Of a stretch of DNA of 64,000 nucleotides, positions 2,866 to 49,895 are shown piece by piece (the first letter of the stretch is position 1; each line of letters opens with the position of its first letter). The position numbers were made by a program, and so were the translations under genes. Below the pieces are notes generated by a model. That model was not told the origin of the DNA and searched no databases. It saw only the letters and a program-made list of their open reading frames with translations. Source of the DNA: Lineus longissimus (lineage: Eukaryota > Nemertea > Pilidiophora > Heteronemertea > Lineidae); assembly GCF_910592395.1 (NCBI RefSeq), contig NC_088322.1, positions 12,951,431-13,015,430 of the forward strand, read 5' to 3'.

Positions 2866-5800
2866 GACGTGTCGGAAGTATCGCAAAAGGCTAACTCCAC
2901 CGCGATCGAAGGGCGGAAACAACTGTTTTCTCATCAAAATACATAAAAACATGAATTGCAGCACATACAGATTCCGTTCTCATTATGCGAGGGCCAAGCT
3001 TTTTCTGCCCCCTACATTTTCCGAGCAAGGCTATATACAAAAACAAAACTAATGAGTATGCGTGCTGTACATCTCGATGTGGTAATTACTTCTGAAGAAC
3101 TGTTTGCGTGGTAGGGGGATAGAACATGACATTTCCCTCAGCCGTGCCAAATCAAGCTTTATTAAAAAGGATCCCGGGGTAGTTGCGTGGGGTGGGGATG
3201 GTGAGTGTGATAGAGTAGTGTACTTGCACTTAACGTAACTTGGATAATCTTGTTAAAAAAACCCAGAAGAAGCCAAAATGAATACATGCATATGCATTGA
3301 TAGAGAAAAATGAAAGTAGTATCATAAAAATGATAATAACTAGTAGACTTACATGTACATAGTGCTAAATCCAACTGGTTTCATTCACCCAAAGCCCTTC
3401 ACATTATTCCCCCTTGCATTTAGCCTATACGTCATGATTCAAGCTCCATTCTCTTGACAGGACTGGTCCGAGCCGTAGCTATACAGCACTCAGGACTAAC
3501 ACTCATATTTTGCAATGTCTACCAGACCTAGATTTGTGTATGATGGTAAACCTAACAAACCCTGCTAAGTAAATGCCCACTCTCATTTGCTTATCATTCA
3601 GTGTGGCCGTCACCAGGTTTTATGTCAAACTGTATAGTCCTATCAGCTGACAGTCATACAGTGCTATTGATGCTGTCACCGAGATATACTTGGATCTGGC
3701 ATGGAACTGTATTATTTCACTCGATCAATGTAGAAATATATCATCGTCTACATGTCGGTTCCAAATTAAACTTTTGTGGTCAATTTATTTTGCATCTTCA
3801 CTGTATACATTTTGTGTTTACATTACACACCGGTACTGTATTGCACTCTGCAATGTACTAACATATCACCTCTGCAAATGATAAATGATAGGAGTGGGCC
3901 TGGGGATGTATCTATAGTAAACTTCGTGAGGAGATGCTTCTGCCGGGTAGTGTTAAGTTCACCTTGTTTCACAGCTAACAAACCGCACGTAAGTGATGAA
4001 TGATGTCTTCGTTGTCAGTATATACAATACCTGTTTTGCAATGCATGCATTTACGCAGGCTATGGACTCGTTTTAGAAGTCAACTGCTTCATATAAGATG
4101 AAAACGGGAAAAGACGGTGGTTAAATACATCTTTAAAGCATAATGTCAACAGAATGCAACATATTCAAACATTTTATTTGGTCAACATTTTACAATTTTA
4201 CAGACACTTGTACATTTACTGGTAGTTATTTCACGTTTACCTACGCCAACTCAGTGTCAAAGCATACACGGAGGTTCATTACACGTTGAAGGAAACTGGT
4301 GACAATTGGTAACAAAGTAAATGCTTCGATAAAATGTGGACAGCGGGGGTGCACGAACACGAACACGACGCCTTGTGTTGATTTTTTATATTTATATACA
4401 CATAATGGACTCATTTTCGCTGATGGAAAGTCACATTGTTCGAGTCACCTAGTACAACAGGAATAGAAAAAAAATGTCAGCTGCTATATGTAAATAATAA
4501 GGCCCGAAACCTGTATGAGAACGGGCCCTAAAGCTGTGCATTTGTAAACGAACTCTATTGTAATGCCTATGCGTAGAATAATGGATAAATAGGCTTGATG
4601 AAACAAGCGTTACACCCAATAAACCCAATAAACCTAGAGATGGAAGCTTTTTGAAAACATCTCTGACCACCGGTTTAAAAAAGCACCATGAGTCTAACGC
4701 ATTGTGACAGGGGAAGATGATAATTCAAACACTGATCGCCTTTGCCGCAATCTCAGTCGTGGGGGATCAAAAAGTCGAGCATGTTGATGACCCTCGATCC
4801 ATCTCGATGTGCCTAAATCCCTTCGGCAATAATGTGTAATTGGCTTCTCAATGCAGACGAAAAGAATATAATTGACCATTCGTTGCTTTAGGGTGGTTAA
4901 ACAAAACCGCTGTGTCACGCCATATTTTTCAATTCTGATGCGGTATGTGTGAGTATGGCTCATCGAGGCCGCTTGAAGTTCAAATTTACTGAACTGGAAT
5001 CAGTAGTCACACAATGTGAAGCGTCGAATGCAAATGACCTTTGGCGTATCACCTTTTAAACCGAGTTTGATCGTTTAACTTTAGTTCCTTTTCGGTTTTT
5101 TCAATTTCTCCTATTCTTCACACAACTAACTTGGTATGACGAATCTCGCGAAAATGTTTCAGGCATTTTAATGCTTTACCCTTATATTGAAATGTTCAGT
5201 GCACAGTCATGCAAAATCGCACTTCTCTGTGACAAAGGCGCCATCGAGTGATTAGTCTGTCTCTCCTCAATCCTCTGGCCGTGACTTCCGGCTGGTTTCA
5301 ACCGATCTCGATGACTCGTTGATTCTGCTCGACCGCCCTGCTGCAGACTTGGTCGATTATCTTTCCTTCGACGAGTGCGAAGTGATTGATTCCAGCCATA
5401 CCGATTCAACACAAAAATATTTTGTAAAGGCAACTGACAGACGAGCAGTCTATATCACCCATTGCGTAGTCTCAGAACCTGTCCCACATTATATCAGCAT
5501 CATCCGTGCAACGCGGACGCGGGTCGAAACTAAGACGCTGCTAAATAGCCTATACCGAGCAAACGTTTTTGGGTCGACTTTCAACCAATCCTTATTGTGA
5601 TGACAAAAGCAACACTGGCCTTGAAATTATTCTGCTGTTGATAAGGTTTGTCGTATGCAGTCGTTACTATTAACAATGATGGAAGCAGTGTCAAAAGCAC
5701 CAGTGTAAATCACTCTATTCTGCGTCGGAAAGGTATTTTTGACACACCCTAAAATAATTACAGCTACTGGCAGCTTAAAAACCGTAGAATCATAAATCAT

Positions 5801-22081: not shown

Positions 22082-25000
22082 CTGAAATAAGTGAAGAAAG
22101 TTCTCGGTAGCTTTCTATAGAATATGACTGCGATCACAGCACATGCCAAACCGCACCCAAACTATGCAAAGATCAATTTGTTTCGCAAGCCATGCGAAGT
22201 CGCGTCTAATCGCATTCAGTGGAAACCCTTCGTATTCTAAACTAAACAACATAACCTGTGATGACATCTACAAACTTAGCGTTCACCTAACCGTCTGATG
22301 AAGACGTGCAGCTCTGCGCCTCAAACGAGCATCAAACATTGCTTTCCGAGTCACCTTTTCGAGGGGGGGGGGGGTGCAATTGACCAGCTGTGAACACTGA
22401 TGATTATCGATACCTTTGTATCGCCTTTACGCTCAGTAGTTATATAAAATCTCACCGACGTTTAGCTTACATTTCCCCGTGTGATTTCAGCAAAGATTTT
22501 TTTCATCGCTTGTGCACCGGTGCATTTAGGTCACCATGTTGGGATTGAGGAGGGCCGTAGGAAAAATTTCCATAATCGTTCCGTACTTCTTGTATCCTGC
22601 TCGGTATGTATATTTCCTGGTTTAAACTTGCAATTGGACAAACAAAATGTATACTTACTTAATAATGCAAACCACTTGTAGCCCTCTTGTTTGCGGACGG
22701 TTTGGTAGCTCATTTTCTGGAAGTATACCCAGACATTCATAAAGTTGTTCCTGAAAGAAATATTGTATAGACAGTACAGAAAGGCAGGACCATGCGATTC
22801 ACGATGACAATGCCACATGAACGTGCAATTAAATGTTATTTTCGAATGCAATAGTTGCACAAGTATGACGAAGATAAATCGATTTTAACTAAAACCACCG
22901 CCACACACACTCAGAAATGAAGTTTTTTGAATAGAAAAACATCAAGGGTTTCCACTTATTTGTATCTACGATATTCGAAAAGCCTTTAAGATTTCTCAAA
23001 AGCTCGAAATCGTTATTTCGAACAAGAGTGAATGATTAGCCTTTAGGATACAGTTATTTACATAACATATTCAAAAACGGCCTTTTTGATAGACATACAG
23101 GCATATAGCTATGTATAGCGTAATCCTACCGATTTATCAACTTGTATTTTTACACGATCAAAGTGCCCATTTCCTTACAAGAAATGGCCATTTTGTTAGT
23201 TCATACTTACCTATGGAACACTTTTGCATGTTACTCCATTTGGGCTCAAACACAAGAGTATCCCTTTAATTTTCTAAAGGGAGAACTGAGTTAACAGCTC
23301 GGCCGCCAGGCGGCGCCCTGACCGATCCCACGAGATCGCGCCGATCTCATGCCGCCATATTTAGTCTTTACTCTTGAGCGTTAATAAAGAGTATGTCCCG
23401 TTTGTGGGGACGGCGGGAGGGCCGTGTTCCATAGGTAAGTATGAACTAACAAAATGGCCATTTCTTGTAAGGAAATGGGCATTTTGTGTCATTCAAACTT
23501 ACCTATGGAACACTTTTGCATCGAATCCCAGCAACCTATTGGAGGTGGGAAACGAGGACTTACCTAAGGCTGAGCTGTTGTTCCATCCAGGAGGCACCAC
23601 CGGCATATTAGCTAAGGAGGACCGCCAGGGGAAAGAAATGGGGAGAACCGGAGGACCGGTATTTTGATCTCGGTATTACAATCATATTATAGAGAGTAAT
23701 AGACCCATTCTCTGGAAAGCACTAGAATTGCGTAATAAAACCATCTTCTTTCCGGCAACAGAGCTTAGAGCAAGTAAGGCATGTTCAAGGGTGTAGAATG
23801 AGTTATTGCTAAACAACAATAAGAAATTGCGTCCTTTCTAGTCTACTAGGGGTTGCCTGGATTGTTGAAGATAGGGCATATCAAAAATGGCGCAAGATGC
23901 GCGTTTGACTCTTCAATCGGGCTTCCCCCCCTTTTTTGATCTAGCCAGGATCAAACAACATGCCCCGCAGACACAATCGGGCCGATTGTGTGCATGCCAT
24001 CTACGAGGGATGAAACGTCTCGTAGGTAGAAACGAGAGAATGTGGAGTGATTACTCCAACATGCAGCAGAAACGACTTCTTGAAGAGCAACTCCTCGGTA
24101 GTTAGCCCAGGAGGTGGCTAGTGCTCTAACTTCGTGCGCTGAGATGTTAGCTAGCGCACGAAGATCAGAGGAAGTCTTCAAGGTGTTGTAGGAAAGACGA
24201 ATAGTCTCCACAATCCACCTTGAAATAGTGGCGGCCGCTATCTCTCGTTTATTTCCCTCCTTATAGGACAAAAATAAACGCTCTCTCCCCTGGCGGATAC
24301 CGGGAGGTTTTGTCCTATTTATGTAGAACTTTAGGGCCCTGACGGGACATAAAGTTCTGTCAGGAAGATCATAAGAGATCGTTCCTGACAGAGAGGGAAT
24401 AGTAACCGGGGGCCGAGAGGCGGCCGGTCCCTGGTTCTTTGCCAGAAATCCTGGTATGAAAGCCAGGATAACCTCCCCTCCCTCTCTAAAAGCCAGCTTC
24501 TTAAAAGAAAGTGCATGGAGCTCTGATCTCCGTTGGGCGGTAGCCAAGGCTACTAGAAAGACCGTTTTGAGTGTCAGATATTTCATGGATGAAATAGACA
24601 TGGGTTCAAAAGGATGCCTCATGAGCACCTTAAGGACAACAAAAAGGTCCCATTTAGGGGTGTTGTGAACCGGTCTAGGACGCTCTAATAACATTCCTCT
24701 GAAAAGAGGGGTTATTTGGTCCTCCCAACGAAGATCCCAGGTGCTTAAAACACGGAGGGTAGAAGCGATGGCGGACTTGTACCCTTTTATAGCCGTGACA
24801 GATAGTTGTCTTTCCGTGAATAATTCAATAAGGAAATCAACTAATCTGTATATAGAGGGAGAGATCGGATTAACTCCGTTCTCCCTGCACCAGGAAGTGA
24901 AGGTAGACCACTTTCCTTGATACACATCAAGGGTAGACCCCCTTTGAGGTGCGGACATGCGCTTGACAGCGATGTCCGAAAAGCCTCTCTGGTGGAGATG

Positions 25001-28000
25001 CAACTGGATAAGTTCCAGGCGTGAAACTTGAACAATCCAGTGTTCTGGTGGTAGCATCTCCCCAGGGGGTGCCACAGGAGGTGCTTCCAAGTAGGAAGAC
25101 TCCTGGGGTGGTCTATCAGGAGCTCCAGCAAGGCTGGGAACCAGGCCTGATTTGGCCAGCAAGGTGCGATGAGAGTTATTCTCACCGGGTGGCTGGTCAA
25201 GATCTTGTTCAGGACTGGTTGGATGAGAGGGAGGGGTGGAAACGCATATGCGTTCAGCCCGACCCAAGAGGCTGTAAGGCTGTCGACTTTCAGGGCCTCT
25301 TCGTCCGGAGGTGGAGAGTAATAGATGGGAAGGCGATTGTTCAGCCTGGTGGCGAACAGATCTACCTTCGGAGATTGCCAAAGGCGACAAAGGTCGTCTA
25401 CAACCTCCTGATGGAGTGTCCACTCTGTCTGAACTAGTTTGTTCTGACGGGACAGGGCGTCGGCAAGGATGTTGCGTTTGCCCGGTATGTGTCTGGCACA
25501 TATCGATACTCCAAGGTCGGCACAAAGATGGTAAAGCTCCCAAGTAAGCTGGCAAAGAATGCCGGACTTTGTGCCTCCCTGTCTCCTGACATATGCTACT
25601 ACTGTAGAATTGTCGGAGAACAGGGTTACTCTCCGATTCTTCAGGTGAAGGGAAAGAGCCCTCACGGCAAGAAGGACAGCCTTCATTTCCAATATATTTA
25701 TTGAAAGAATGGTCTCCTCCCTTGTCCATAGACCCCTTATGGACATGTCCCCGTTGTTCAGATGTGCTCCCCACCCTAGTAGAGAAGCATCTGTGAACAG
25801 GGACACTTCTGGGGGCGGCGGAGCAAGATCTACACCGCTTTGGAGACGAGTCTCCGACTCCCAGAAGTTCCAGACGTTCTTGAGTAGGTATTGAGGTATC
25901 AATACCAACTTGTCTAATGGGTCCCTGTGGGGTTTCCATAGAGACATTAGAAACATCTGGATGGGACGCATATATAGACGGCCAAGGGGGATTTGGTCTG
26001 CTGCCGAATTCAGAAGTCCCAAAAGGCTCAAGCATCGCCTTGCGGGAGCTTGAGTCCTTCCTCTGAATTCTGCGACGAGATGAAGAATTTTCTTTATCCT
26101 GTCTAGGGGGGGGGGGGGCAGCATTTTCCCTATGGCCGTAAGGAACCGAACTCCAACGTAAACGAAGTCTTGGGATGGTATGAATTCTGACTTTGTTTCG
26201 TTGATAATCCAACCTGCGGAAACTACTTTTTGCTTTAGAACCTGAAGTTGTTGCAGTAGTAGTTCCCGCGATTTGCAACGGGGTAGCCAATCGTCTAGGT
26301 AGTGATGGAGCTTGAACCCCATCACGTGAAAGGGAGCGACGAAGGCTGTGACTATCATCGTAAAAATTAGGGGTGCCGATGCCAGACCGAACGGCAGGGC
26401 CCTGAATTGATACGTCTTTCCTTCGTAATGGAATCGAAGGAAGTGTTGATAGTCTGGATGGATCGGTACATGTAAGTACGCATCCGTTAAATCCATCGAT
26501 ACCGCCCAATCGTTGGGCTGTATCGCCGTTGCTATAGACCTGGTGGTTTCCATCTTGAAATGAGGAACATTCAAGAAGGTGTTTAATCTGGAAAGGTCTA
26601 TGATCAGCCTCCATGTCCCTGCTTTCTTGGGAACCAAGAAAACGTGGCTGTAAAAGCCGGGGGAGCATGGATCTTGAAGGACTTGGATAGCTTGCTTCTC
26701 CAGTAATGTCGCGACCTCTGCTTGGAGGGCAGAGGCCTTGACTGGGTCCTTCGGTGGCTGAACTGGGGTTGGATATATGGTAGTCGGGGGGGGGGGGGGG
26801 GTACGGTTGAAATCTAGTTTCACTCCGTACCTTAACATGTTTGGGACTGGGGACCCCTTTGGGCACCAATCGTCCCAAATGTCTGCAAATTTTTGCAGAC
26901 GGCCCCCGACTACCGGAGTCGGCTCCTTTTTGCGTCCGGGAGGAGAAAGGAGGGGGGAGTCACCTCTTCCGGCCAGCACCCCTTGGGCGAAAGGAGTGCT
27001 TAGTCGGACCGGATCCACCCTGGTTAGAGGAAGTATTTTTCCTCTTTCCAGTCCGGCGACCCTCCGCTTCCCGTTGGAAGGATCCAGCAGGAGCAGGCTG
27101 ACTAGGCGGGGTAGGCCTAGGCAGGACCTGCCTGGCGTACGGGATTGAACCCGATGCCTGCTGGGGCCTCTCTATCTTTCTAGCGTTAGGTAGAGAGGTC
27201 TTGGCCCTCTGTGTCGCAGTGGGGGCATATAATTTGTCCCAATCTTTCTGTGCTTGAGCCGCCTCTTGTACAGAATCTGCGAACAGGAAAGAACTGTCCA
27301 TAGGAGCGGTTCCTAAGGCCCCTTCCAGCTGGAGGGATCTGATGACATTGAGAGAGCCCAGTGTGGCGTCTCTACGGAGTAGGACGCTATTTGCTGCGGT
27401 CTTGGCGGACAGAGCAATAGCGTGCCTAATCGAATGTGACAAGGATGTCACAAGCGATTTTGTGTCATCAGATAGTGACTCATTATCTTTTAGGGATCTG
27501 GCTAGGGCCAGGTTAGTGTGCTCTGCGTAGGAGAGCACCGCTAACGTGTTTTTGGCCAGACCCTCTTGTGCTCTAAGGTCTCGGTAAGCCGAGGAGGAGG
27601 TCACCCTAGGCACGAGTTGGTCCAGCTGTACATCGTCCTTTAATATGGAAGTCGATGCTGCAGCTGGACAGCCGGCCGAGCTGACTCGATAATAGTCAGC
27701 GCGGTACTGCCTAACGGGAGGAAGTTGTGCCGTGAACAACTTCCCCGGTTGGTTACACCAAGCTTCCGGTCCGACTGCCAGAAGGACAGGGATGGAAGTA
27801 CGTTGGTGGGCGCCTTGTGAGTCTCTGATTGTACGCTCCAAACGTTCAGAGACTGCTACCACCGACGGGGAGGGAGGAAGGAATTCAAGTGCCCGAATGG
27901 AGCCTTGAGAAACCTGTGGATTGGGATCCACTTCCTGTCCCCAGAGTGAAAAGGTCGGTGTTGACAAGGCTGGCAGTTCCGGCGGGGTAGGGCACAGATC

Positions 28001-31000
28001 CTGCGGGAGGTACGCTCTGATCAAGGATCTGAGTGTCCTAATATCCGACAAGATACTGGCCTCCTCTGGTGACAGCTCCTCCTGATTGGGGGAGCGGTAG
28101 CCTGGCTGAGAACTCTCGTTCTCAGAAAATTCCTCTAAAATAGAGGAGTCGGATGGTGGGTATCCGATGGGACCAGGCGCACCAGAGGAAACGGAACCCT
28201 GCTCCAGATGGCTGAGTCTATCAGTAAGACCTGCTACCATCTGGATGAGCTGGGACAGTTGCTGTCCCGACTCGGGTTCCGGACCCGACGTGCGGCTTCT
28301 CTCAACGACGGGCGGTTGAGGCGAGGGTGAGCGCATAAGCGAACCCTGGAAGCCGTATGTACGGGCGAATGGGTCTTCCGGAAGCGGAAGATGCCCATAT
28401 TCTGAACCAGAGTTCAGATGTCCTCTCTGCGTAGCTCGTTCCATGGGAACGACGCCTCTGCTACGAGGAGGGGGTGGCACTTCCGGTTGGTTCCACCCAA
28501 GAGGTTGGCCAACGTAGGAAGGTGCCTGCATTTCCGGTAGGACGAAGTCCGAAACCGGAAATGCCCGTAACTCCTTCGCCGGTATGGAGCTACTGGATGC
28601 CCTTTTAGAAGGAGGTACGGAGGGCGGAAACGCTGTTACTGAAGACGCATGGCGTTTCGGAGGTGGCGTTATAAAGTCCGGCCCTACTCTACTGTGTCCG
28701 TGAGGACTGGGGTTATTTTGCAGTAAAGACTGAGAAAAACCCCCAGTAGAGTCTTCGGTTACTGAAAAACGGGAACCCGCGTCAGTAACCGGAACTGCAA
28801 TCGGCGGACCGGAAGCAGGGTGCTCCCGCGGGTACAAAGGGCTTGTACTCGGGGGAGCGGACGACAGAGGAACCGGAAGGTTCCCTGAGGTCCGGGGTAT
28901 ATTAAACCCTTGGAGACTTACTGGATGTAAGTCTCCCTTGGGACCACAGACATTAATAATGTCAGATCCCGCATCCTTCGCAGCCGCGGCCGGAACCGGA
29001 ATTCGGCTGACGGAAGGGGTGGTGGCGGGAGGTTTGCTAGACCTCCGGGTTATATGCTCGGAAACGGAACCGGAAGAGGGTTTAGGCGTCTTCGCGGCCC
29101 GTTTCCCGCCACCAGACGCATTCCTTTGTGGTGAGAGAAAGGATGCCGTCGGAGGGGTACGCCATATAAAAAATGGTACCAATGACAATAAAAACACTGG
29201 AAACCCCAAGTAGGCCAGAAAGGACGCAATAATTAATGGAAAGGAAAACATGCCTACTTGAATTAAACACTATTGCAATGGATCTGAGTCTTGTTCATTA
29301 CAATAGAGCGGAGAATAGCCTACTTAACTCTACCCTACCAAGATCAAAATAATGGAGCCGGGTCGACTAAGCTAGCTAAGAAAATGTCTATAATTAAATA
29401 GACTGGACAATACTAATGCCAAGATTAGTTTGGCGGTCTACTCCGTAGGTGAATGAACCCAAAAATCGTCTAGACTTGGCTGGTTGAATTTGGTTTTAAA
29501 TCGAATTCACGGCAGCTTTGAAAAAACGATGTGCTTCGTAGAAGCACAAGAGTAAAGACTGAATATGGCGGCATGAGATCGGCGCGATCTCGCGGGATCG
29601 GTCAGGGCGCCGCCTGGCGGCCGAGCTGTTAACTCAGTTCTCCCTTTAGAAAATTAAAGGGATACTCTTGTGTTTGAGCCCAAATGGAGTAACATGCAAA
29701 AGTGTTCCATAGGTAAGTTTGAATGACACAAAATGGTATATACCTGATAAATGCTCTGTTGATTGTCAAAGACTCATTGAACGACCTCAGTTTACCACGA
29801 AATATGTGGAAGTTTGTTGTGAAGTTCTTCCAATGTTTCGACGTCCTTTTTTGTGATCCATCGAACTCATCCAATTTCGTCAGCAAATTCGACAGCATAT
29901 CACGGAACTGCTGTGCCAGGCCAGTTTTGTTGCCTTCATAGCTGCCCTCCAATGTGTATGTTTTCATCATTGTGTTGGTGATGAAGTCATATGCTGTCCG
30001 TATGATTGAGGCAAACCGACTCCCAACTGCGAAGTCGGATCTATCGAGACTGATGATAACTGTGCTATACAGGTTGTCCAAGCATTCTAGCAGGTCTAGT
30101 TTTGTTGTGTTCTCCCAAGAAACGAAGAAGTAGCGCAGCTGTTCTATTTTGTCGCTCATGGCTATACCACGTAGAACTTTCTGAACGCGAACTTGAAGCA
30201 GTTCCAACTTGGAGAAGACAATATGTTTACTCGCCTTATAAACAGCAAGAAATTCGCTCTTTACAGCTTGGTCAGCCTTAACCTTACCGAATACTTCCTC
30301 CAAATACTTCCTTGCCAATGCAGCATATCTCATGAAATCGTCACCAAATGTTTTAACGGACTTAAAGTTTCCTTCTACGATAGAAATGCGCTTAATCAAA
30401 CTCAGAGTTTTGTTCGATTCATCATGTACGATGCGGTCGAGATTTTCAATGATTTGATCCAGGCCAGCAACTGTCTTGTGCACACTCAACGACAACCTTC
30501 GTAATGGCGTAAGCACTCCTGTCTTCCAATTCTTCAAGTACTTATGTGGCACCTGGTCATGAACATCCCGATTGCGAGTGACGTTTCGCATGACATGATG
30601 TTCGTACTTATCATACTGTTCGATTTTCTCTCTTGCTAGCTGTTCAAGAATCTCGCAAGAACTCTGGACCCGCCGGAGATTAATCTCAACTATATGCTGC
30701 AATTTCATCATTTGCCCCCTCGCCGCTCCGCCTAAGACATTTTCCTTTCTAAGCCTTACAATCTCGATGACGTATTTGTTGTACATCAGATCAAGAGTCT
30801 TCCGAAACTGAGAAAGTGATGCATCGAGTACCGTTTCCAGTTCGTCAAAGTCAAGATTCCTGTCGAAATGTACAATGAAGTCTGCCTGTTCTTTTATGAT
30901 ATCCCGCAAGCTGTTTTCAGCTCCTTGTACCATGGATCCCATAAAGGCAGCCACAAGCGCCTAGAACAAAAGAGATTCAGAAAATGTACGTGCGATTATC

Positions 31001-34000
31001 ACCAACCATTTTTGTTGCTCTTTAACGCATTTTCTGAGTTTGCTCATTTCTCCGAGCTTTCATATCTTTTTCGCGAATGCTAAAAATACTGAAAAACATA
31101 GTTACGCAAAATGGAATTAAGATCTACTAACGTGATGAGTGCCATGTGTCAATGATATTTCCTCATACAGCATCGAAAATAATGAGACCTTGTGCAAAAA
31201 AGAATTTATAGCAGATTTTCATCATGCAAGTTTTTTTTAATCCTCGTATCAATACTTTACTAACCGAATAAATATATCAAAGCAGCACAGTGCTACAGAT
31301 ACTTACACTTAGTTTATCAACAGTTGTCCGAAACTCGGCATCCGTGATGTTAAGTGCCTGAAGCGTATATAATATGTCATTGTCGTTTTGCTTCCAAAAT
31401 TTTGGCTCCTGGCGGTGAAGGATCAACATAGCATTCTTGTGCTGCTCAAACATTGTCTTATCATATGCCCACTTTTTAGCCAACTTCTTAGTAGCGAAGA
31501 AGTTTCTTTTCGTATACGAAATGTCGTGTAGGTAGGTGTCTTCTATGCAGTCGGTTGGGCAGATTTCATATTTGAAGCACGTATCGTTCTGGTTGAGAAC
31601 ACCTGCAATATTGATGGCAGAACTGTAAACCACCAAATTTTTACTATATATGCCAAGTTTCAATGAATTTGCGTGCATGAATGACAGGACAGAACTGCAA
31701 CAATGCATTTTAGACTTACACCAGCTAAGCTACAAGAAGATAATGATTTCATAGGGCGTAGGCCTTGAAGGCACGTGTAACAACATTTATTTTGAACTTA
31801 GAGAAGTACACTTCCCACCGAAGCTTAACCTCCGCATCCTTGTCTGAGACGGCGAAGTGGAGTCCATGATGTTTTCGTCACGATCAGCCACATTTCAAAA
31901 CGTGCTACTCACGAAGAGCGTTTTCAACACAACCATAGTGCGTAGACATGTTGCAGAAAGGTACAGACTGTTTCCATCGAATCCACCAGGGTTTACAACC
32001 GCATTTCTCAATAAGACGTCCAATATTACAATCCGTGTTACAATACTCGTCGCTGTAGACAGGATGGCCACCTATGGGTTCTTTCTCACCGCAGTTTCCA
32101 TCGGGATACGGCAGTTCATTGGTCTGCGAATAGAAAAGCGAGCACCATTCCATGAGTTACATCTCCATGGTTAATATGATTCTTTATAACCCACTGCGAA
32201 CATCTACTAGTTTCCATATGCAATGCAATATTGGACCACTGTATATTTCAGACATTGTAATATATACCTCTAACTATTACTCTCATTCGAAAGTTAGTTG
32301 ATACGTTGAATTTTTACAGTAGCTGGCGATAAACCTGAAAATCTTTCAAATGTCTACACCATGCATTGTTGCGTATTGTGTACTAATGGCGCATGCATCT
32401 CCACAACAGGGCAATGAAACGTCAATTTAAGTCCGCCTTCCAAGTTCTGGATTTGACTTCCTTTATATTAATTGGGTACCTATCCCATACGTTAGGGGCT
32501 AGGAACGGAGGTGCGTGTCCGGGTCAGGCCAGAGACGCTAGAGTTGAAAAACGCGGCAAGACGTGTTAAGATCATATCGAGTCAAAGTTACCAGGTAACT
32601 CACTCTAAAAAGCTGTAGTCCTATCTTGGCATTATTCTCCTGCGCCAGGGATATAGAAAGGTCCCTAACCCTTGGCATATCCCGCAGCGAGTGTATGAGT
32701 AAGTTGAAACCAGCGGATGAATAAGGCCCAGCCATGTGCTCGTAGCTCTCAACATTCAGAAGGAGACGGAGGCCATTTAAAACGCCTGAAATGAACAGAT
32801 TGGAAGAAGGTATATAGCGTACTGACGTCTATGGTAGGCTGTAGGGGATATAAATCAGAAGTAATCGGCATGTAAAATACCATCCCGATTAGCTGAGACC
32901 GAATTTTTTTGAGAGAATTTACGGTAGGTTTTTGCAGGAGGTATTTGCGGGAGGTATTTCATCGAACAATTATTTATGATTTATGTCCCCTCCCGCCAAC
33001 CATAGACGTCAGCACTTGAGTTTATAAATGAAATGTCATAGACAAACACCACGTGCACTATGAGCTAAAGTATTTTGTTTCAGTTCGACTTGCCTTTTTG
33101 ATTTCTTGTCATGATAACGTCATCACAATATGAACTCAATGCGACTAACGATTATTTAAAGGGATTATCTCACTAGAATGTAAAAAATGCTGTAATTGAG
33201 AATTTCGAACCTTTTGATATGACTTTCAAAATATCAAACATTCGAAAGAAAAGGTACAAACCAGTGTCATGTACAACTCTGCCGGACTTTTCTGAGTTGA
33301 AGGAAAAACAGTAACCGCTGTCGGTCATGATCCCCGAGAAGTCTTCTGGTCCGCACTGCTCTCCTTCCCACATGCACCTAAAACAAAGTATGCGAAATTT
33401 GCATTCGGACTTCTGTCAGTTTATTGCCTATAGCTATAATGCTATCTCCCCTTAAGAATTTGTTACCGCGATCCACCACATAACAAAATTTTTCGTTCAA
33501 GAGTTCAAATTCGTCGTTAAGCGCTATAATATAGTGAATTGATTCTTTTTTTTCGTTAGCTTGAAATGGCACAATCAGAAATACAACGTACTCTTTGATC
33601 ATATCTTCTTTCTTGTGAGCAAGCTCTATTAGGGTGGAGTAATTTAGGTAGTCAAGATTGTCGAACTTGTGCCTTTCCGTGGATTTTTCAACGAAGAACT
33701 TTGTGATGTTGTCCCACAGACCTAGTCGCTCAGCTGCAGTAATCCTGTAAATGAAATCTGTGATTTATTGACCATGAAATGTTCCATTTGTACGATTGCT
33801 GCCCCCGCCTCATTCCGTTTAAAATTTCATTTAGTTTTTGTCAAAAATACTTGACTTCGTTGAGCCCACCTCTCATAATAGAGACGACGCGACCCTGTTG
33901 CATAACTCCTGAAACTTTTATTATGCAATGTTTATAGTGATATTTAAAATGATGCAATCAGATGGAGGGGCATGCCCCAGGATTCATTACGCGTCTTTCG

Positions 34001-41300: not shown

Positions 41301-44300
41301 CAAAACCGACCCTTCATGGCACATCATTTCTTGCAATCGTATCTATCTAATTTTACTGGTATTTTTGGTGCCACGGAGATTTTTGGTGTAATACTTTAAA
41401 GCGAATGAGGAAACACTAACCCGAGAGTCAACACCTCCACCGTGAACATAGTGTTTACTCACGCGTAGAGGTTTGACCATTTTTGCGCTTATCTCAGAAT
41501 TGTAGCGATGAACCCACTTTGGATACCATGGACCAATCACTCTAGAGAATTCTATCTCGGTGGAGACACCATAAAGCGATCTGCCTTCTTTGTTTTGCAA
41601 CATGTTCTGGGAAAAGAAATGTTTTACCATATGACCCCTGTGTCAAATTGAACAGAACCACTAGGCTTCATTATAGGTTTTAAGTACTTGACTAAGGGAA
41701 GAGGACCTGGTTAGGTCACTCTGGGATGACGATGATGTAAAATGAATGTTGCTGCTGGAATTTGGTTACGGAATAACTAGCAACTATAGACATCAACGCC
41801 TTGAACTGATTCAGAAGCCACATTCTTTCTTTGCTTTGAACTGCATGCTCATCAGCTAAATTAGGAATCATAATCGTAAAAACTACTTTTGGGCAAACTT
41901 GCCAGACAAATTTTCGAAAGCTAACCTAATAATGGTTTAAGGAATTGATATCGAAGTAGAGGTATTGGTTGCCTCACCAAATATTGCGATGGTGGAGCTA
42001 CAATGTGAGCTAATATTATACCAGCCAGTGTTTCGGGCGAAACAACAGCTCCACTTGGTCAGACAACCAATATAACACCTCAAAATAAACACTAATAAGC
42101 GATTTTGACGGCTTGAATATTTTGCACCATCCAAAGCGGTTATGATTGCCAAAACAAGTGCATTATATAGACAGTGCTACTTTGTAACCAAGGTGGTTTA
42201 GAATAAGTAACTTTAGAATAAAGTATTCGATACTCTACGAACTAAAGCGAAATTTACAGCCGGAATGATACGAGACTTTCAAATGGCAGTTCGAATCCTA
42301 AAGCTACAGCATTGCTAAATTTCAAGATTACACACCATTCTTCTTATACTTCAGTTAAATATTGTCGGTAATAAATCGACGATTTTAGTTGTACTTCTAC
42401 TTGCAGACATCGAATCTGAAATATACTTTCAGCTTTAACAACAATACTGTCTGTATGAGTCATCTTGACGTGCAAGGTGTTTATACAAAGTAGAGCATGC
42501 ACACATTCGCTCGTTTAAGTGACCATGTGCACATGCAAGCCTTTCAGTATTGATAAATTTAGCGGCTGCACTCTCAAATGGCACATCAATGCTAAGTGAT
42601 GAAGAATCCAGCATGTTACTAATTTGAGGCAAAAAGCCATGTTTTATGAAGGCAAATATATCCAACTTCTGAACATTCCATTTTAGGAGCAGCGAGAATG
42701 ACATTGATGTCTATGGAAGTGAAAATGCGATCCTCCTTTAGACACACGGTCATCAGTGTATCGTTGGGTCGTCAGATAGCAGAGCTATTTGCATCAATTT
42801 CTCTCCGAGATCCAGTCAGAATTTACTCGAATCTCTCTGCATTTGTAATCAATTATTTATTGTGTATCCTTTATCGTGTTTATCATGTTTATGGTAATAC
42901 ATGTAGTTCGCGTTCTTTTACAAAAAAAGGACCTCATGTGGGAACCAACCTCTGCTTCAAAGGCGTAGTTTTACAACATCTAAATAGAAGGACGACATGT
43001 GCACGTCCATATCAATTACATTCATGTACAAAACAATTTATTTGAATATAAAAACAATGCTTTCCCTTACCATATATTCCTTGTCTTTTTGTTTCATCAT
43101 CCGTCGTCTTCGACATGCCTGAAAAGGGAAGCTTTCATAAAATTTCAACAAATTACGACCACACTGTGTTACTACTGTATAGTTGTAGCTTGTCATAAAA
43201 TTCGTGCTGGTCATATCTAGTTCCCTGGCTCCGTTACCTTTCTGTCCTCGTTCGCTACTCTCTGACAGCTTTGGCGTTTCCGCTTTGCTTTTTGCTGTCC
43301 TCCATAATTATACAGAACAATTTCAAAGCATTAGTTCAATGAACTCTTACACGATCGTGTGTGACACTAAGCTCTTAAGCTCGAATTGTAAAATCAATAT
43401 ATTCACGAACTTGCAATTTTGACAGTGAAACCATTAAAGTCACGATTCTGACTCGGTTGAGGGTAAATCCGTACAACTCGAAACTTCATTCACAAACTTT
43501 TTAAAACTACACATCAATAATTGTACTCACGCTGAAGTATATCCGAATTGAAAATGCTACGTTGTATAAAATATAGAAGCTAAGCAGAAACCCAACCATC
43601 CCTTTCTCGACTTTCTGCATGAACTCCTCGGGGTTCTCTGGCGAGAGGCTGCGAGCATTGTCGTCGATGACGGTCACAAGACAGTGCCAAACGCAGATTA
43701 TCGCCAACATGATCATTGAGGCCAACACGTATTTATCCTGGAAGGAATTGGAATAAAATATAAAATGATATGTGTTCACATCTTCGCTTAATTACAGATA
43801 AGGTATCAACAATTTCATTTGATATTGTGATTGTTACCTAGCGTACGGATCTGACTGGTCGGTTTTAGTTATCTAATTCGTGTGACATCAGCAAAAATAC
43901 CAAGCCTTATCATTGAGGGGTTGATAAACGTTTCAGGGTTTACCCCGTTGAACATTTGGAACAAGTTGATGGAGGCAACATTAAACAATTAGGCTAACCT
44001 GACCAGAATTTGATCATTTGGCATCCGTTATTATAAAGAGTGCATGGTCATAACATACATCAGTTAGAATACACAGAGGTAAAATAAACTGTTTAAAAAA
44101 TCGTGTTTAATTAACATTTTAACCATGTTAACAATTCAAGTCTATTGAGTGGGTGATTCTATTTTTAATTTTGCATCACTTTTATTTCAATGCCAGTAAT
44201 ACAAGCATAACCGTAATGCTACAACTATCATTGATCCTATATTATTTATTATCACGTGGAACTCAGGCGTCATATAGTTAATACGACTATCTCTTTGATC

Positions 44301-47300
44301 TCAAACCTATCACCTTTATGAAATGACCTTAAACGATACCAAACAATCCACCATCCAAAGCTGATTGTAAAAAGCTGCATGAGTGTATACACCTTTATCA
44401 AATGCAAGTTACGCAGTCAAAAGCAAATTGTCAACCGTATTGGTGTCACAGCATTAGCCGAAAAGCAATTTTACCAATATGTTAAAAAAACATTTTAAGG
44501 GGCACTTGTGTCTCTATTATTGTGACAACTGATTCACATCTTCACCACCGCCGGTAACAGCTTCTTGCTGACTGAATGTATTGACTATATGGACACATTT
44601 TGCTTTACCACCTTTAAGATGACGACAAAGACATAAATTAACCACGTAATGTGCTGCTGTTGGCGCCACCCCCAGTTGCTACAACCGTGGACAACCATCA
44701 CTGCATCAATTTATGTTAGCTTCATGCTGTATTGTGCATGACATAAGTATCCCAACAAAAAAGCGGCATGAAGGTAACATGTAGAAAGCAAAGCTCATAT
44801 CCAAAACGAGCAGATAAAGCCTCATTCAAATTTTAACTCCTACCACCTTGCAGGATATTATTTACCATGTAAGTTAGATATGATATTTTGGGTAAGCATC
44901 GATCGACGACTAACTTAAATGTCACAGAGCTCAAGAACAACGTGAAACACAGCTTGAGTCTCGAGGAAGTATCCTTGCGGTCCACAACAAAGGAAGCAAA
45001 AGCCAAAGATGTTATCAGAAACTGAAAAGGAGATGTTTGCATTTATTATCGGGAACCAATACATCCGAATGGCTTGGCCACATCACGAAATGTTTGGAAT
45101 TGTGCGACGGTAAATGGTTTATTTGTAAATTTGCATACACCTTTATCTATGTATGTGCATGCACCTGCACTGTGACGGTTCCAAGAATGAGCCAGCTCTC
45201 TCACTATCTTCTTTTTCAATGCCTTATCACAAGGTCTTAGATGACACAATAAAACAAACTTTTTCTACAATATAAAGATAAGGTAAAAAGAAAAACTTCT
45301 CCGATATGAAATCGCCGTCATACATCTGGCGTGCCTGCTTATATAGGTTTGAATTCCTGCCGCATAGGGCAGTTTTGAAAACTACATCAACATTGCGCCT
45401 AGTTCATTGCTTTCGCGTGTAATGGCGACACCACTGTAGACGCGGTTTTTCGTCCAATTCCGACATTTCCAAATGTTTACCAAGCCATTCCGTTGCATTG
45501 GTCCACCGTCTTTTCAACGGCACTTACCAGATACGTTAGATATGATATTTTTGGTAGACTCTGATTCACGATAAATTTAAATGCTACTGATGTCAGGATA
45601 AGAGTGAACGATAATTGGAGACGGTTCTGGGGGAGGGTGTGTTTCACGGAAAACGTCGCAAATGACAGAGAGCATATAAGAAACTGAAATAGAAAAAAGC
45701 ATTATGACGCAAATATGCTATAATCGTCATGCCAGTATCAAAACATCGTGTTTTTTTTAATAAAATGGTGTACAGCATTATATTTTAAGGAACACTGGAT
45801 ATCATGGCATATGATTGAGAGAAACCCACGGATTACTTTGACTTCACTTCCAACAAAGCAAACTGTTCAACCTGATAAGTAAAGCGATACAATAACTAAC
45901 TGTCAAAATACTAATAATCGGAGATGGGCGATATATCAATTAAAAGGCAGTAAATCATATGTCTTAGAACAACAAGCGTATTTTAATTGTGTTCTAAAAT
46001 GTATGAATAATTCTATTGAAATCGACTGAAATACTCTAGCGGTTGTGCATATCTAAAACGGTGATTAGAACTGGACTGGATCTAGTAGGGATACAAATTA
46101 CGCTGCATTCTAATTTGAGGCGTTGTGATTGTGCTACTTGGTCGTGGGTTAGAGAAGGATGATAGGTTATAAGTAAGTAGTTGTATCCACGATGCACGAT
46201 ATGTTCGCTTTTTCTCCCAATAATGACCTCGTAAAGTGATCCTTATGGTCGTTTCTCGCCAGGTAAACAACGTGAAGATAACTGTCCTAGAGCAGGTAAC
46301 ATGACAAGAACAAGAATGAAAGACCTTGGTCGAATGATACCACAGTCTGGTACAGGTATGGGATTGTATAGGGTTGCGTCTATTCGGGCAGAAGCTGTGA
46401 GTCCGATTGTTGGTCTTCATGTGAAATCTTTGGGGTGAAGGTTTGACGGAAGGTTGGGAACATCCCATAAGCTAAATCGAATAGTTATGGTTTTCCGTGA
46501 AAATGCAGGGACAAACATTTTGCCAGTTGTAAAGACGGGAAGGTACAATGCAGACTATTACAAATAAACACGCTAGATACTCATTGTCTCCTTTAGAAGG
46601 AGGAGACAGACGCCAAAAATACGTACCGTGATGAGAAAAATATTCCAGAAGAAATATGCCGGCCTCCTCGCCGCCCTACACTTCACCGACATAGCCTGTC
46701 TCTGGAATGTTGGGTCCGCATGTTCGTAGGTAAGAACCTTAGGTTCCGCCTCTATATGCTTGTATAATGACCATTCTTGTTCGTCAACGAAAGACTGTTT
46801 GTTCACTCGATGGATGTCGTTGGCGTCGCTGATGAGCTCGACTTCTGTTTGTGGCCGGTCAGATGCTACCGTGCAAGTCAAGTCCTGGAAAAAAGAGGAG
46901 TGTTGTTCTTGTTTAGTTGCGACGTTACTCTGTGTTTTCTACAACCTAATGAACTTCATCCCACAGCTAGACATAACGAAAGGAAAACAGGCATAGCGAT
47001 AGGAGCGCTTAAGGTAAAGATGGTTTCAATTCGGCTAATGCAACGTAGAAAGTAACAGGTGGCAAGTGTTAGGTATAACACACCGCCAAACAACATGCTA
47101 GCTCTCATTCTATCTCAGGAAGTACTTCACAGTTTTGACAAGCATTACCTGCACGTCAAATGGAAAGTCCATTAACTCTAAATTCTCAAGGAACGTGCCC
47201 TTGACTCTCCTCTTTTCTGTCATATAGGCTTCCCCATTCTCCATCCACATGGGACTCCTGAATATACTCTCTTTTGGCTCCCCTATTGTGTTTTCTATAA

Positions 47301-49895
47301 AGAGGCGAGGATGCCAGATGCTGTCTGGGTCCATGGTGGATTGCCTCGGCTGCTGCTGGAAATGGAAATAAGAAAATTTTCATTTACATTTTACATTGCA
47401 CCAAACTATGAAGATCGTGAATTTGATTAATCCGCACATAAATCCATCTTAAGTACGTACATCATTTCAGATCAGTGTATTATCAGCGAACAAAATATGC
47501 ATCAAAATGACGCACTCGCGAATCAAAACACGTGTTGGTAGTTTATCAAAGCCTCACATTTGGGGAAACTAAAACAAGCTAGTTGTTAGTGAACTTATAA
47601 AGCGTGCAATGTTTTGAACTCGTAGACAGTTATACGGCTGTTTCAACACATTGCTTTCTTGCCTGATGCATGGCATTTAAGGGTCGAGTTATGGGAATAA
47701 CGAGTCCTCAGATGTTAAGAATGGCTTGCCCTTTGGCAGGAATGACACTATGAACAAGCTTTTATCATGATGGTCATCGCAGCATCAATATTAGGGGACA
47801 TCGAAATCTTACCTCCCTGGCGGCCTTGGCTTCTTTTTCGGATTTGTCCATGCTTGGTTCCCGCCATCTTGCCTTGACAAGTACATCAGCATTAAATTGT
47901 TCTTTAATGGTGTCGATCTCCCCGACCTTCAAGAATACCACGCATACCTCTACTCGTTTCTTAAAAGATAAGAACGAATGTTGTGATAGCTCTGATTTGG
48001 CACAGTCGCCAATCGTCAGGTAGGGCACCCAAATCAATGAATTTTGTGGTGTACTCTTAAACTAAAGTGTAACAGCAAGAACTCCCAACCCTTTCTCAGG
48101 CAGCTTCCTAGCCTCATTCCCGAAACCTGTCACCAACCAGTTGTTTGGTTTCTGACTACAGGTCCTTCTACACTCTCTTTTAGCTATTTGTGATGTATAC
48201 ACCCCTTCCGTGAGTGGTTCTTCTCTGAAAAAAAGCAGCATGCTAAGGTTATAAACTGCTGTATACGTTTTATCTGCATGAGGGTCGAAAAGGTAAAATT
48301 TGTAAAAAAACAACATTACTGCAGGGTCATGGCCGTCGCTTAATATAGGAAACTACATATCTTGGTTGCAGAGAATGTTATAAGAAACGCGTACTTGAAA
48401 TAATAATTAATCTTTTTGTTGGTTTTTATAGCCATGCCTTTACTCCAAGTCAAGCAATACCAAATGGCTTTTTTGGGGGAGGGGTAAAGTTTTCTTATAC
48501 CATAGATATCTGCCGGGACACCACTGTTGATATCCCCATTCGTCAACGAATCGAGTTAATGCAACACCTGGCAATATCGATACCCCTCCATCGATTCATA
48601 GCCAATGTAAATATACATCGACAATCTAGGAATATTCTGTAAGGAGATAGGCTGATACGTTATGGTGCAGCGATGATCACTATTTCCAGAAATCAAGTGC
48701 ACTTATTGACAAAAAAACGTAAGCTAGCTTGGTTATCCCTATGCGATTAGGAACGACCAAAATACCAGATCCAGGTTGCATATTCAGGAGTTTAAGTCAC
48801 TAACTACCGCAGCGTTATCTCCTTCAATATATTTATCCCCGTAAGCATGGTAAACTGAAAGCCAAGTATAAGGTAAAGTTTACTTTATAGTGACCAACTT
48901 GTTTGAAAACCCAAGCCCAGTAGCTTAGCTGTCCTCACCTCTTACGACGGAGATGTAGTAGTACCAAGACCTCGAGAATTTTCGCCGTATTGTTGGATTT
49001 GACATTTGATATTATCCGGAATAGGTAAAACAAAGTCTGACCGTATCCAGTTTTGATGTTGTCATACACCCGGTCGGACTCATTGCAGTTTAGACATTTA
49101 TACAAGTATGTGCATTATATGATGCTGCTTCTAAAATATTCGAACGGCCCCTTGTCGACGTTTTAGTAATTGATTGCTCCTTGCTTCTTCTTTTCTTATC
49201 GCCAAGCATGTTGGTGAATTTACGGGAAACTGATACCTGGTGTTTCTTGAGCTGCGAAATTGTATCTCCGTTGCTTTTCACCGACTGTGTTTATCAACAA
49301 AGCCATTGTTTCAATATGCACGCCGTGATATATGCACATTGAATTTGTACCTGGTGTGATGTGCAGACTACGAATGCAGTGGGAAAATGTTTTTGAAGAG
49401 GCAATGCATTGTGCACCCGAAGGTTCGAGAGTGTCCGTTGCACTCCACATAAACTCGCTTAAAATCTCTAAGCGAACCATGAGCGCACGGTACATAGCTT
49501 TGATGGGCCCGTTGGGTTCAGTCGAAATGAGTTGGGATATGTTGCGATGCCAGGCACGGTGCCAGACACAGTGAATTTCTCGGCAGCTCGAGATATTGCC
49601 GAACAACAGTCATGGTCAGATCGCCTCCCTCCAAAACAATCTCAACCAGCGACAATACTGCGGCATATTCTGTACTATTGATAGCAAAGGCGTCTCGTTA
49701 CAGGGGTGTGACCGTGAGTGAGTGCGTGAGTCCTGACACTAACACTTTGCCTACCTTGTCGGGGTTTGGATCACCCGGTTCATAGTCCTTGAACGTAGCA
49801 TACGATGGCTCCAAACTTATTTGATTATATCCGTCTGATTTAATTGAAAGAGATCTCACCCGCTGTACAGGCCCAAATGCACCTATTGGAAGCAT
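38258..49895 (-). CDS. Pentameric ligand-gated ion channel subunit lacking the Cys-loop cysteines, with duplicated pore exon
   Basis: The coding exons are 49895-49755, 47959-47813, 47355-47149, 46884-46627, 45683-45528 or 45021-44866, 43737-43531, 43118-43071, then 38383-38258 or 40273-40214. All junctions are phase 0. With the 38383 tail the protein has 429 residues. Family features: FLKVGEIDT and ARWREP in the ligand-binding domain, SIWHPRLFIEN, FPFDVQ (160-165), RRPAYFFWN entering M1, an M2 of type RLQLSFTLILTSVAFKF, LPKISYLTYLDKY, M3 (about 305-328) and M4 (about 350-370). Both Cys-loop cysteines are absent and the M3-M4 loop is about 22 residues, as in bacterial relatives. Invertebrate Cys-less members are known; ligand and ion selectivity are not predictable. 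No signal peptide is evident, so the start is uncertain. Confidence 0.9.
40214..40273 (-). CDS. pLGIC candidate alternative last exon 8a
   Basis: The acceptor ACTTGTTCAG is followed by 19 codons (GAMNAPKKQKKAKLAAQVV) and a TAG stop, in the phase required by exon 7. It is Lys-rich like the preceding exon. It could be an alternative short tail or a chance frame. Confidence 0.45.
   Translation of the reverse strand, partial: GAMNAPKKQKKAKLAAQVV
43071..43118 (-). CDS. pLGIC exon 7 (basic cytoplasmic microexon)
   Basis: This 48-nt exon encodes ACRRRRMMKQKDKEYM directly after M4. The acceptor is CCCTTTTCAG and the donor ATG|GTAAGG; both are phase 0. A run of basic residues right after the last membrane helix is what topology predicts. 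Confidence 0.8.
43531..43737 (-). CDS. pLGIC exon 6 (M3, short loop, M4)
   Basis: It has 69 codons from DKYVLASMIMLAIICVWHCL to SIRIYFS. M3 and M4 are joined by only about 22 residues (DDNARSLSPENPEEF...). The acceptor is ATTCCTTCCAG and the donor AGC|GTGAGT, phase 0. Confidence 0.92.
44866..45021 (-). CDS. pLGIC exon 5b, alternative copy of the pore exon
   Basis: It has 52 codons in the same phase as 5a, with acceptor TTTTCAG and donor ATG|GTAAAT. M2 reads RLKLCFTLFLSSVTFKL: 2' is Lys instead of Gln, 4' Cys instead of Ser and 13' Thr instead of Ala. Using both copies would repeat M2, so one or the other is expected in a mature transcript. The copy is free of stops and conserved where it matters, so it is not an obvious pseudoexon. 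Confidence 0.88.
45528..45683 (-). CDS. pLGIC exon 5a (M1 end, M2 pore, M2-M3 linker)
   Basis: It has 52 codons, phase 0 at both ends, with acceptor CTATTTCAG and donor CTG|GTAAGT. M2 reads RLQLSFTLILTSVAFKF; taking Arg as 0', the 2' residue is Gln. LPKISYLTY follows. It is 30/52 identical to exon 5b, and the last nine shared residues are unchanged. Confidence 0.93.
46627..46884 (-). CDS. pLGIC exon 4 (end of ligand-binding domain, start of M1)
   Basis: It has 86 codons from DLTCTVASDRP to RRPAYFFWNIFLIT. The second Cys-loop cysteine is replaced by Leu (DVQDL). The acceptor is TTTTTTCCAG and the donor ACG|GTACGT, phase 0. M1 is interrupted by the intron and completed by either copy of the next exon. 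Confidence 0.93.
47149..47355 (-). CDS. pLGIC exon 3 (W-x-P motif and Cys-less loop)
   Basis: It encodes DSIWHPRLFIENTIG and ends LELMDFPFDVQ at the donor CAG|GTAATG. In canonical Cys-loop receptors a cysteine precedes this motif; here the aligned position is Glu. The acceptor region reads CCAGCAGCAG, so three tandem AG choices could add or remove one or two Gln. Confidence 0.93.
47813..47959 (-). CDS. pLGIC exon 2
   Basis: It encodes KRVEVCVVFLKVGEIDTIKE and VKARWREP, the start of the ligand-binding domain with its conserved first strands. The acceptor is TTCTTATCTTTTAAG and the donor GAG|GTAAGA; both are phase 0. Confidence 0.9.
49755..49895 (-). CDS. pLGIC exon 1 (N-terminal, start uncertain)
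   Basis: The chosen ATG gives MLPIGAFGPVQRV and 47 codons ending DPNPDK at the donor AAG|GTAGGC, phase 0. Alternative acceptors in the same phase (GCTCTTGCAG about 24 bases upstream of the ATG; CCTGTACAG just inside) mean this could be an internal exon. No signal peptide is seen. Confidence 0.7.

Follow-up and report, generated by a model that had tools for sequence, protein, structure and literature searches.

The window, i.e. the whole stretch of 64,000 nucleotides analysed here (C15:12951431-13015430, in a genome of 391 Mb and 30 contigs), carries on its minus strand a gene for a putative ligand-gated channel in which the exon over the pore helix M2 is present twice. The ligand-binding domain starts, as far as found, in exon E2 (47813..47959, 49 amino acids, phase 0, open frame and AG/GT boundaries), which matches exons of five paralogues. 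It continues in exon E3 (47149..47355, 69 amino acids), with FPFDVQ of the Pro-loop at the C-terminal end and E106 at the place of the first Cys-loop cysteine, and finishes in exon E4 (46627..46884, 86 amino acids), which has L120 at the place of the second cysteine and also encodes the start of M1. The end of M1, M2 and the M2-M3 linker are encoded by exon 5a (45528..45683; 2'Q, 4'S, 13'A), the canonical copy, and again by exon 5b (44866..45021; 2'K, 4'C, 13'T, 19'D, 20'R), the variant copy with the donor GTAAAT. The two are separated by an intron of 506 nt with complementary ends (45022..45527). Exon E6 (43531..43737) encodes M3, a short M3-M4 loop and M4, and exon E7 (43071..43118) a basic tail of 16 amino acids C-terminal to M4. 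All the introns of this minus-strand gene are GT-AG and phase 0 throughout, and the junction coordinates listed in an earlier note on this DNA (46627, 45683, 45528, 45021, 44866 and 43737) are all right. Comparison with three of the five paralogue loci (L015-L017) revealed none of the missing 5' and 3' exons.

Elsewhere in the window, long overlapping open frames occupy 24000-29300 on the minus strand, and a reverse transcriptase domain is recognised in one of them (RVT_1, 2.4e-22, Pfam); by its look, we take the element to be a DIRS-type retroelement. A 63-nt inverted repeat is found near it (approximately 23159-23221 and 23424-23486). An open frame of 443 amino acids (29629-30960, minus) is without a Pfam match at E 0.1, and an exon of the amiloride-sensitive sodium channel type (31905-32156, minus; ASC, 3.8e-6, Pfam) indicates that another channel gene, not related to the pore-exon gene, lies ~11 kb from it.

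The identification of the product as a ligand-gated channel, already made in the earlier note, is supported by the Pfam ligand-binding domain (34.8 bits, cut-off 26) and by ELIC, the best relative of solved structure (PDB), with 9.1e-20 and 27% identity in the alignment; the Pfam membrane domain scores 27.3 bits, slightly under its cut-off of 28.1. Membership of the Cys-loop receptors was rejected, as the cysteine pair that defines them (13 residues apart, in the beta6-beta7 loop) is replaced by E106 and L120. The loop reads FPFD, with P114. Because glutamate and leucine occupy both Cys-loop positions, the gene is placed among the Cys-less Pro-loop receptors, all the marks of which are present: the loop proline, the absence of the flanking cysteines, and the ligand-binding and membrane domains. 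Judged by its translated exons, the gene product is a subunit of a pentameric ligand-gated channel of the Cys-less (Pro-loop) kind. Contig scans detected two bacterial loci (L001 of Dickeya undicola and L002 of an Exiguobacterium MAG) and no viral locus.

Exons 5a and 5b are, exactly as described in the earlier note, both 156 nt long and phase 0 at both ends; their translations are open, and they have AG acceptors and GT donors. For the pore positions, 0' was set at the Arg of RLQL/RLKL, by what we take to be the usual convention, and applied to the alignment. The two exons have 30 of 52 residues in common, among them the whole of LPKISYLTY, and differ at 2' (Gln/Lys), at 13' (Ala/Thr) and in the stretch PQN/TSS, so the claim of tandem pore exons with changes at pore positions is borne out by their alignment. 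Further differences are seen at 4' (Ser/Cys), 19' (Asn/Asp) and 20' (Gln/Arg), and 0'R, 6'T and 9'L are retained in 5b. At the nucleotide level 95 of the 156 positions are identical (30, 42 and 23 of 52 for the first, second and third codon positions, respectively). When the window was searched in translation with 5a as the query, 5b was found at E 1.5e-15, which rules out chance similarity; the next among the matches listed is at just E 0.11, and a third pore exon in the window was rejected on this ground. The pair has the layout sought for tandem alternative pore exons like those of nAChR alpha6 exon 8, namely homologous exons of equal phase over M2.

In respect to the electrical consequences, the -1' Glu of ELIC is absent from both 5a and 5b, and in both the M1-M2 loop is 2 residues longer, because of which the selectivity of even 5a cannot be read from its sequence. 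The net charge is equal in the two exons (+4 for the whole exon, +3 for loop plus M2); thus, 5b relocates charge within the pore module and adds none. That a basic M2 residue can matter is illustrated by the L251R substitution in alpha1, with which the muscle AChR becomes a chloride conductance at positive potentials, according to the text available (PMC6800317). A change of charge selectivity by 5b is unlikely.

The genome search with exon E4 gave seven matches at E<=1, which represent at least six family genes, as E4 is divided into two parts in one of them. Tandem pore exons are present in two of the six family genes as found: the gene in the window and a paralogue at C15:12.119 Mb (L016), 0.88 Mb away, with pore exons at 4958-5113 and 5186-5341 of that locus. 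In the paralogue, unlike the window gene, the variant copy (-1'K, 2'V, 4'A, 13'T) precedes the canonical one. The residues 2'Q, 4'S, 6'T, 9'L and 13'A of 5a are common to the second copy of the paralogue (C15p_B) and to the single pore exons of two other family genes (C4 and C2a); the remaining ones have 2'T (C2b) and 2'K (C2c). At C2:5.655 Mb (L019, 2941-3096) the sole pore exon found has 2' Lys together with -1' Glu, and this locus adjoins the family gene L018 with 2' Thr, so the residue at 2' differs not only between exons but also between genes. At C9:20.389 Mb (L020, 5246-5389) there is a PARVALGITTVLTMTT pore exon, still with LPKISYL at its end; presumably it comes from a receptor of the anionic Cys-loop type.

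Four canonical copies (5a, C15p_B, C4 and C2a) define 32 invariant positions, and the variant of the paralogue departs from them at four (-1', 2', 4' and 13'), all of which belong to the ten departures of 5b (P 0.006). Over all 52 positions, nine of the ten positions that differ within the paralogue's pair differ in the window gene too (P 0.001); both P values treat all the positions as equally variable. The history of the copies was addressed with six topologies of eight sequences of 156 nt, for which p-AU ranges from 0.0555 to 0.911 with the codon model and from 0.105 to 0.85 with the DNA model. The best tree by codons places 5b outside the others, and the best by DNA joins 5a with C15p_B and 5b with C15p_A. 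Under both models, bp-RELL and c-ELW reject the tree of one shared duplication with the same order, which AU retains. In the tree of the ligand-binding domain the L016 gene has the shortest path to the window gene, but neither this tree nor the M2 tree fixes the key forks. The reversed order of canonical and variant copies hints at separate duplications, and gene conversion is also conceivable.

The ends of the 506-nt intron are complementary to each other. The arms of the panhandle are those of a 23-nt inverted repeat (I1, 87% complementary, minus strand), the 5' arm of which (45480..45502) begins at intron nucleotide 26 and the 3' arm of which (45055..45077) lies 33 intron nucleotides before exon 5b; the whole imperfect duplex comprises ~60 bp. 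The duplex computed between the first 81 and the last 89 nt has an energy of -72.4 kcal/mol, compared with -34.7 +/- 4.6 kcal/mol (minimum -49.1) for 500 shuffles and with -18.1 to -37.4 kcal/mol for the ends of 18 other family introns (those of at least 170 nt in the gene and its paralogues, 14 with GT...AG and 4 with approximate ends). The fold of the entire intron has a z value of -5.09, and none of 100 shuffles is as stable; its best ungapped stem is reached by none of 300 shuffles and by one of 63 chunks of the window (at 23 kb, beside the retroelement). In a fold of 1018 nt of context the arms have a mean pairing of 0.905, and the unpaired share of the zone 18-40 nt before 5b is 4%. The polypyrimidine tract of 5b is paired in the fold of the intron only and 77% open in the 1018-nt fold. 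No strict branch-point motif is present 12-70 nt before 5b. Pairing was also sought in the docking-site/selector pattern of the Dscam type, and the intra-intron pairing alone stands out. One further 13-nt match, between 45506-45518 and 46526-46538 (92% complementary), would loop out 5a and might compete with the panhandle; it is one of 22 listed pairs.

The computed pairing makes it conceivable, at slightly under even odds, that the intron structure matters for exon choice; the pairing of intron ends can also aid splicing. Its closest competitor, a serious though not a favoured one, is that the exons are indeed alternative, that ordinary trans-acting factors choose between them, and that the pairing, left over from an old inverted insertion, has no role in splicing. 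Inverted repeats of like strength do exist elsewhere: none of 24,840 test windows (both strands, 324 kb) reaches -72.4 kcal/mol, but -70 kcal/mol is reached at two places, the intron and L027:8651, and -55 kcal/mol or lower at 28 places including the intron (11 of these are in L040, a stretch of 10 kb). The self-match of the intron (49 nt, 77.6%) also resembles terminal inverted repeats. Against a relic of this kind, the intron has one match in 391 Mb at E<=0.001, namely itself (in a search that skips very common words), and a MITE or other multi-copy repeat was rejected on this basis; in the 324 kb at E<=0.1 it matches just itself, its own inverted arms and a 22-nt segment. Furthermore, the 18 other family introns (4 of them with approximate ends) are all far weaker, and the arms sit at both ends of the intron, next to the splice sites.

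Less likely, yet not to be neglected, is that 5b is an ageing duplicate, seldom or never spliced, so that in practice the gene yields the 5a form alone. This would fit the greater divergence of 5b, which is identical to the other copies at 78 to 100 of 156 nt in seven comparisons (75 to 113 for 5a), and its ten departures from the 32 positions common to the four canonical copies. Its donor is the weakest of eight M2-exon donors and the sole one that is not GTAAGT, so 5b may be rare, and the intron pairing would cover its branch zone. The open frame of 5b alone is weak evidence of function, because 12 to 35% of neutral simulations of 5a remain open. Nevertheless, 5b seems free of decay. The dN between 5a and 5b is 0.35 with dS saturated (2.6 by NG86, 2.1 by YN00 and 13 by ML). 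In comparison with five relatives (5a, C15p_A, C15p_B, C4 and C2a; C2b and C2c were left out), 5b is changed at 14/39 first, 8/45 second and 9/15 third positions where at least four of the five agree, and the contrast of second and third positions on the 5b side has a Fisher P of 0.003; for the unanimous sites alone the values are 7/40 and 2/4 (P 0.18). When 61 neutral substitutions are all loaded on one copy, at least 30 of the 52 residues are kept in 1.5% of simulations. The acceptor of 5b is usable, and the retention of 0'R, 6'T, 9'L and LPKISYLTY likewise speaks against an ageing copy. With moderate support from these comparisons, 5b seems to be selected and its splice sites to be usable, and we consider it quite likely that both exons are functional and alternatively used.

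A distinctly improbable role for the hairpin is that of a substrate chiefly for A-to-I editing or for dsRNA-binding proteins, and not that of a steric device; an imperfect duplex of this length would suit it, and Tribolium nAChR alpha6 is edited, but at exon sites according to the text available (PMC2064938), whereas the duplex here is intronic.

How one-at-a-time use could be enforced is constrained by the exons themselves. With both or neither of them included the frame is kept (phase 0, 156 nt each); exclusion enforced by the frame was therefore rejected, and nonsense decay cannot police errors. Incompatibility of U12 and U2 sites was rejected as well, since the donors of the window gene look like ordinary GT sites. 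In the paralogue the intron between the pore exons (L016 5114-5185) is 72 nt long. Its branch-like CTAAT places an adenine at a distance of 49 nt from the donor, and a less apt match lies at 16 nt. This intron is open in frame, and its retention would give a continuous open frame of 180 amino acids across both pore exons. Taken together, the 72-nt intron and the computed panhandle suggest that both keep the first donor too near the second branch site, and mutual exclusion of 5a and 5b is plausible. Serial inclusion of 5a and 5b, by which the subunit would gain a further transmembrane helix, is very improbable even with the frame preserved, as a second M2 would be expected to flip the topology of M3 and M4, and as the ends of the inter-exon intron pair in the computation and are in the paralogue only 72 nt apart.

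We favour the reading, at a probability of roughly 0.62, that the pore cassette of this gene is doubled and that its copies are used singly, with 5a as the default. Exons 5a and 5b would be alternative versions of one pore module, used singly, and the cell would choose the canonical pore with 2' Gln or a variant pore with 2' lysine. The pairing would hold the 5a donor against the branch zone of 5b and cover that zone, so that with the intron ends paired 5a and 5b could not be joined; 5a would be spliced by default, and 5b would be released when the pairing opens. The paralogue may attain the same outcome through its 72-nt intron. In homomers or mixed pentamers, the 2' lysines could reduce the conductance for cations or make the pore prefer anions. 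A broader proposal, that the pore exon was made an exchangeable cassette twice, that the swap from a neutral 2' ring to a lysine ring alters charge selectivity or silences the channel with its ligand-binding domain unchanged, and that the closeness of donor and branch site (through the panhandle in one gene, through the 72-nt intron in the other) enforces the choice, seems rather improbable as a whole. If the exons of the window gene are used as proposed, splicing could let one receptor gene answer a given ligand with electrical responses that are opposite or graded. The two genes share the doubled exon and the four altered positions but not the intron architecture, and offer a natural comparison of how tandem exons are kept exclusive.

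Among known receptors, the closest in kind are the Cys-less Pro-loop receptors of invertebrates described by Jaiteh et al. (2016) as predicted proteins from Branchiostoma, an echinoderm, molluscs and others (PMC4795631), where the animal Cys-less channels are given as without biochemical characterisation in the text available. The present gene resembles them in lacking the Cys-loop cysteines and having the loop proline, and its Glu/Leu fits the polar-then-hydrophobic pattern given there for the bacterial sequences. In contrast to the window gene, tandem pore exons go unmentioned for those receptors in the text available of that paper, and the word "alternative" is absent from its main text (PMC4795631). 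ELIC shares 2'Q, 4'S, 6'T, 9'L and 13'A with exon 5a; unlike 5a and 5b, it has the -1' Glu and the shorter M1-M2 loop, and its bacterial gene is without splicing. Primary amines act as openers of ELIC (PMC4801368, in the text available).

In respect to the splicing, a steric threshold of ~50 nt is proposed for mutually exclusive exons (PMC7969005, in the text available), and the 49 nt from donor to branch-like adenine bring the paralogue near to this threshold, in likeness to the steric exclusive exons of alpha-tropomyosin and of OGDH (exons 4a/4b). The intron of the window gene, unlike those systems, has 506 nt, and RNA pairing would have to bring donor and branch site together. For a combination of sterics with RNA structure, Dscam exon 17 is cited (reference list of PMC7969005). 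Competing RNA structures are well known in mutually exclusive exons (PMC6071210, in the text available), and a panhandle within the inter-exon intron alone differs in its layout from docking site and selector.

The earlier note held that pore-exon switching was undescribed in these receptors, which is wrong: the exon 8 alternatives of the insect nAChR alpha6 change TM2 (PMC2064938, PMC3644170, both in the text available), and with these tandem M2 exons known the claim to novelty fails. Those alternatives are termed mutually exclusive in the text available of PMC6393475. In Tribolium all six combinations of exon 3 and exon 8 were found by RT-PCR, and exon 8c substitutes a conserved Glu (PMC2064938, as accessible); in thrips, exons 8a and 8b are of 29 amino acids with 7 differences (PMC3644170, as accessible). 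Among the papers listed in a search of the openly licensed literature, no title or visible abstract reports alternative pore exons for a Cys-less receptor. As far as this search shows, the receptor class, the larger module, the 2' Gln/Lys exchange, the recurrence in two genes and the intron pairing are new. The exons 8a/8b/8c of alpha6 in Drosophila, Tribolium, Apis and thrips, as far as the available texts describe them, are, like 5a and 5b, tandem homologous exons over the pore helix. Unlike alpha6, which belongs to a Cys-loop receptor, the 5a/5b module is found in a Cys-less one, spans 52 amino acids with 22 differences, and has 2' Lys in one of its copies.
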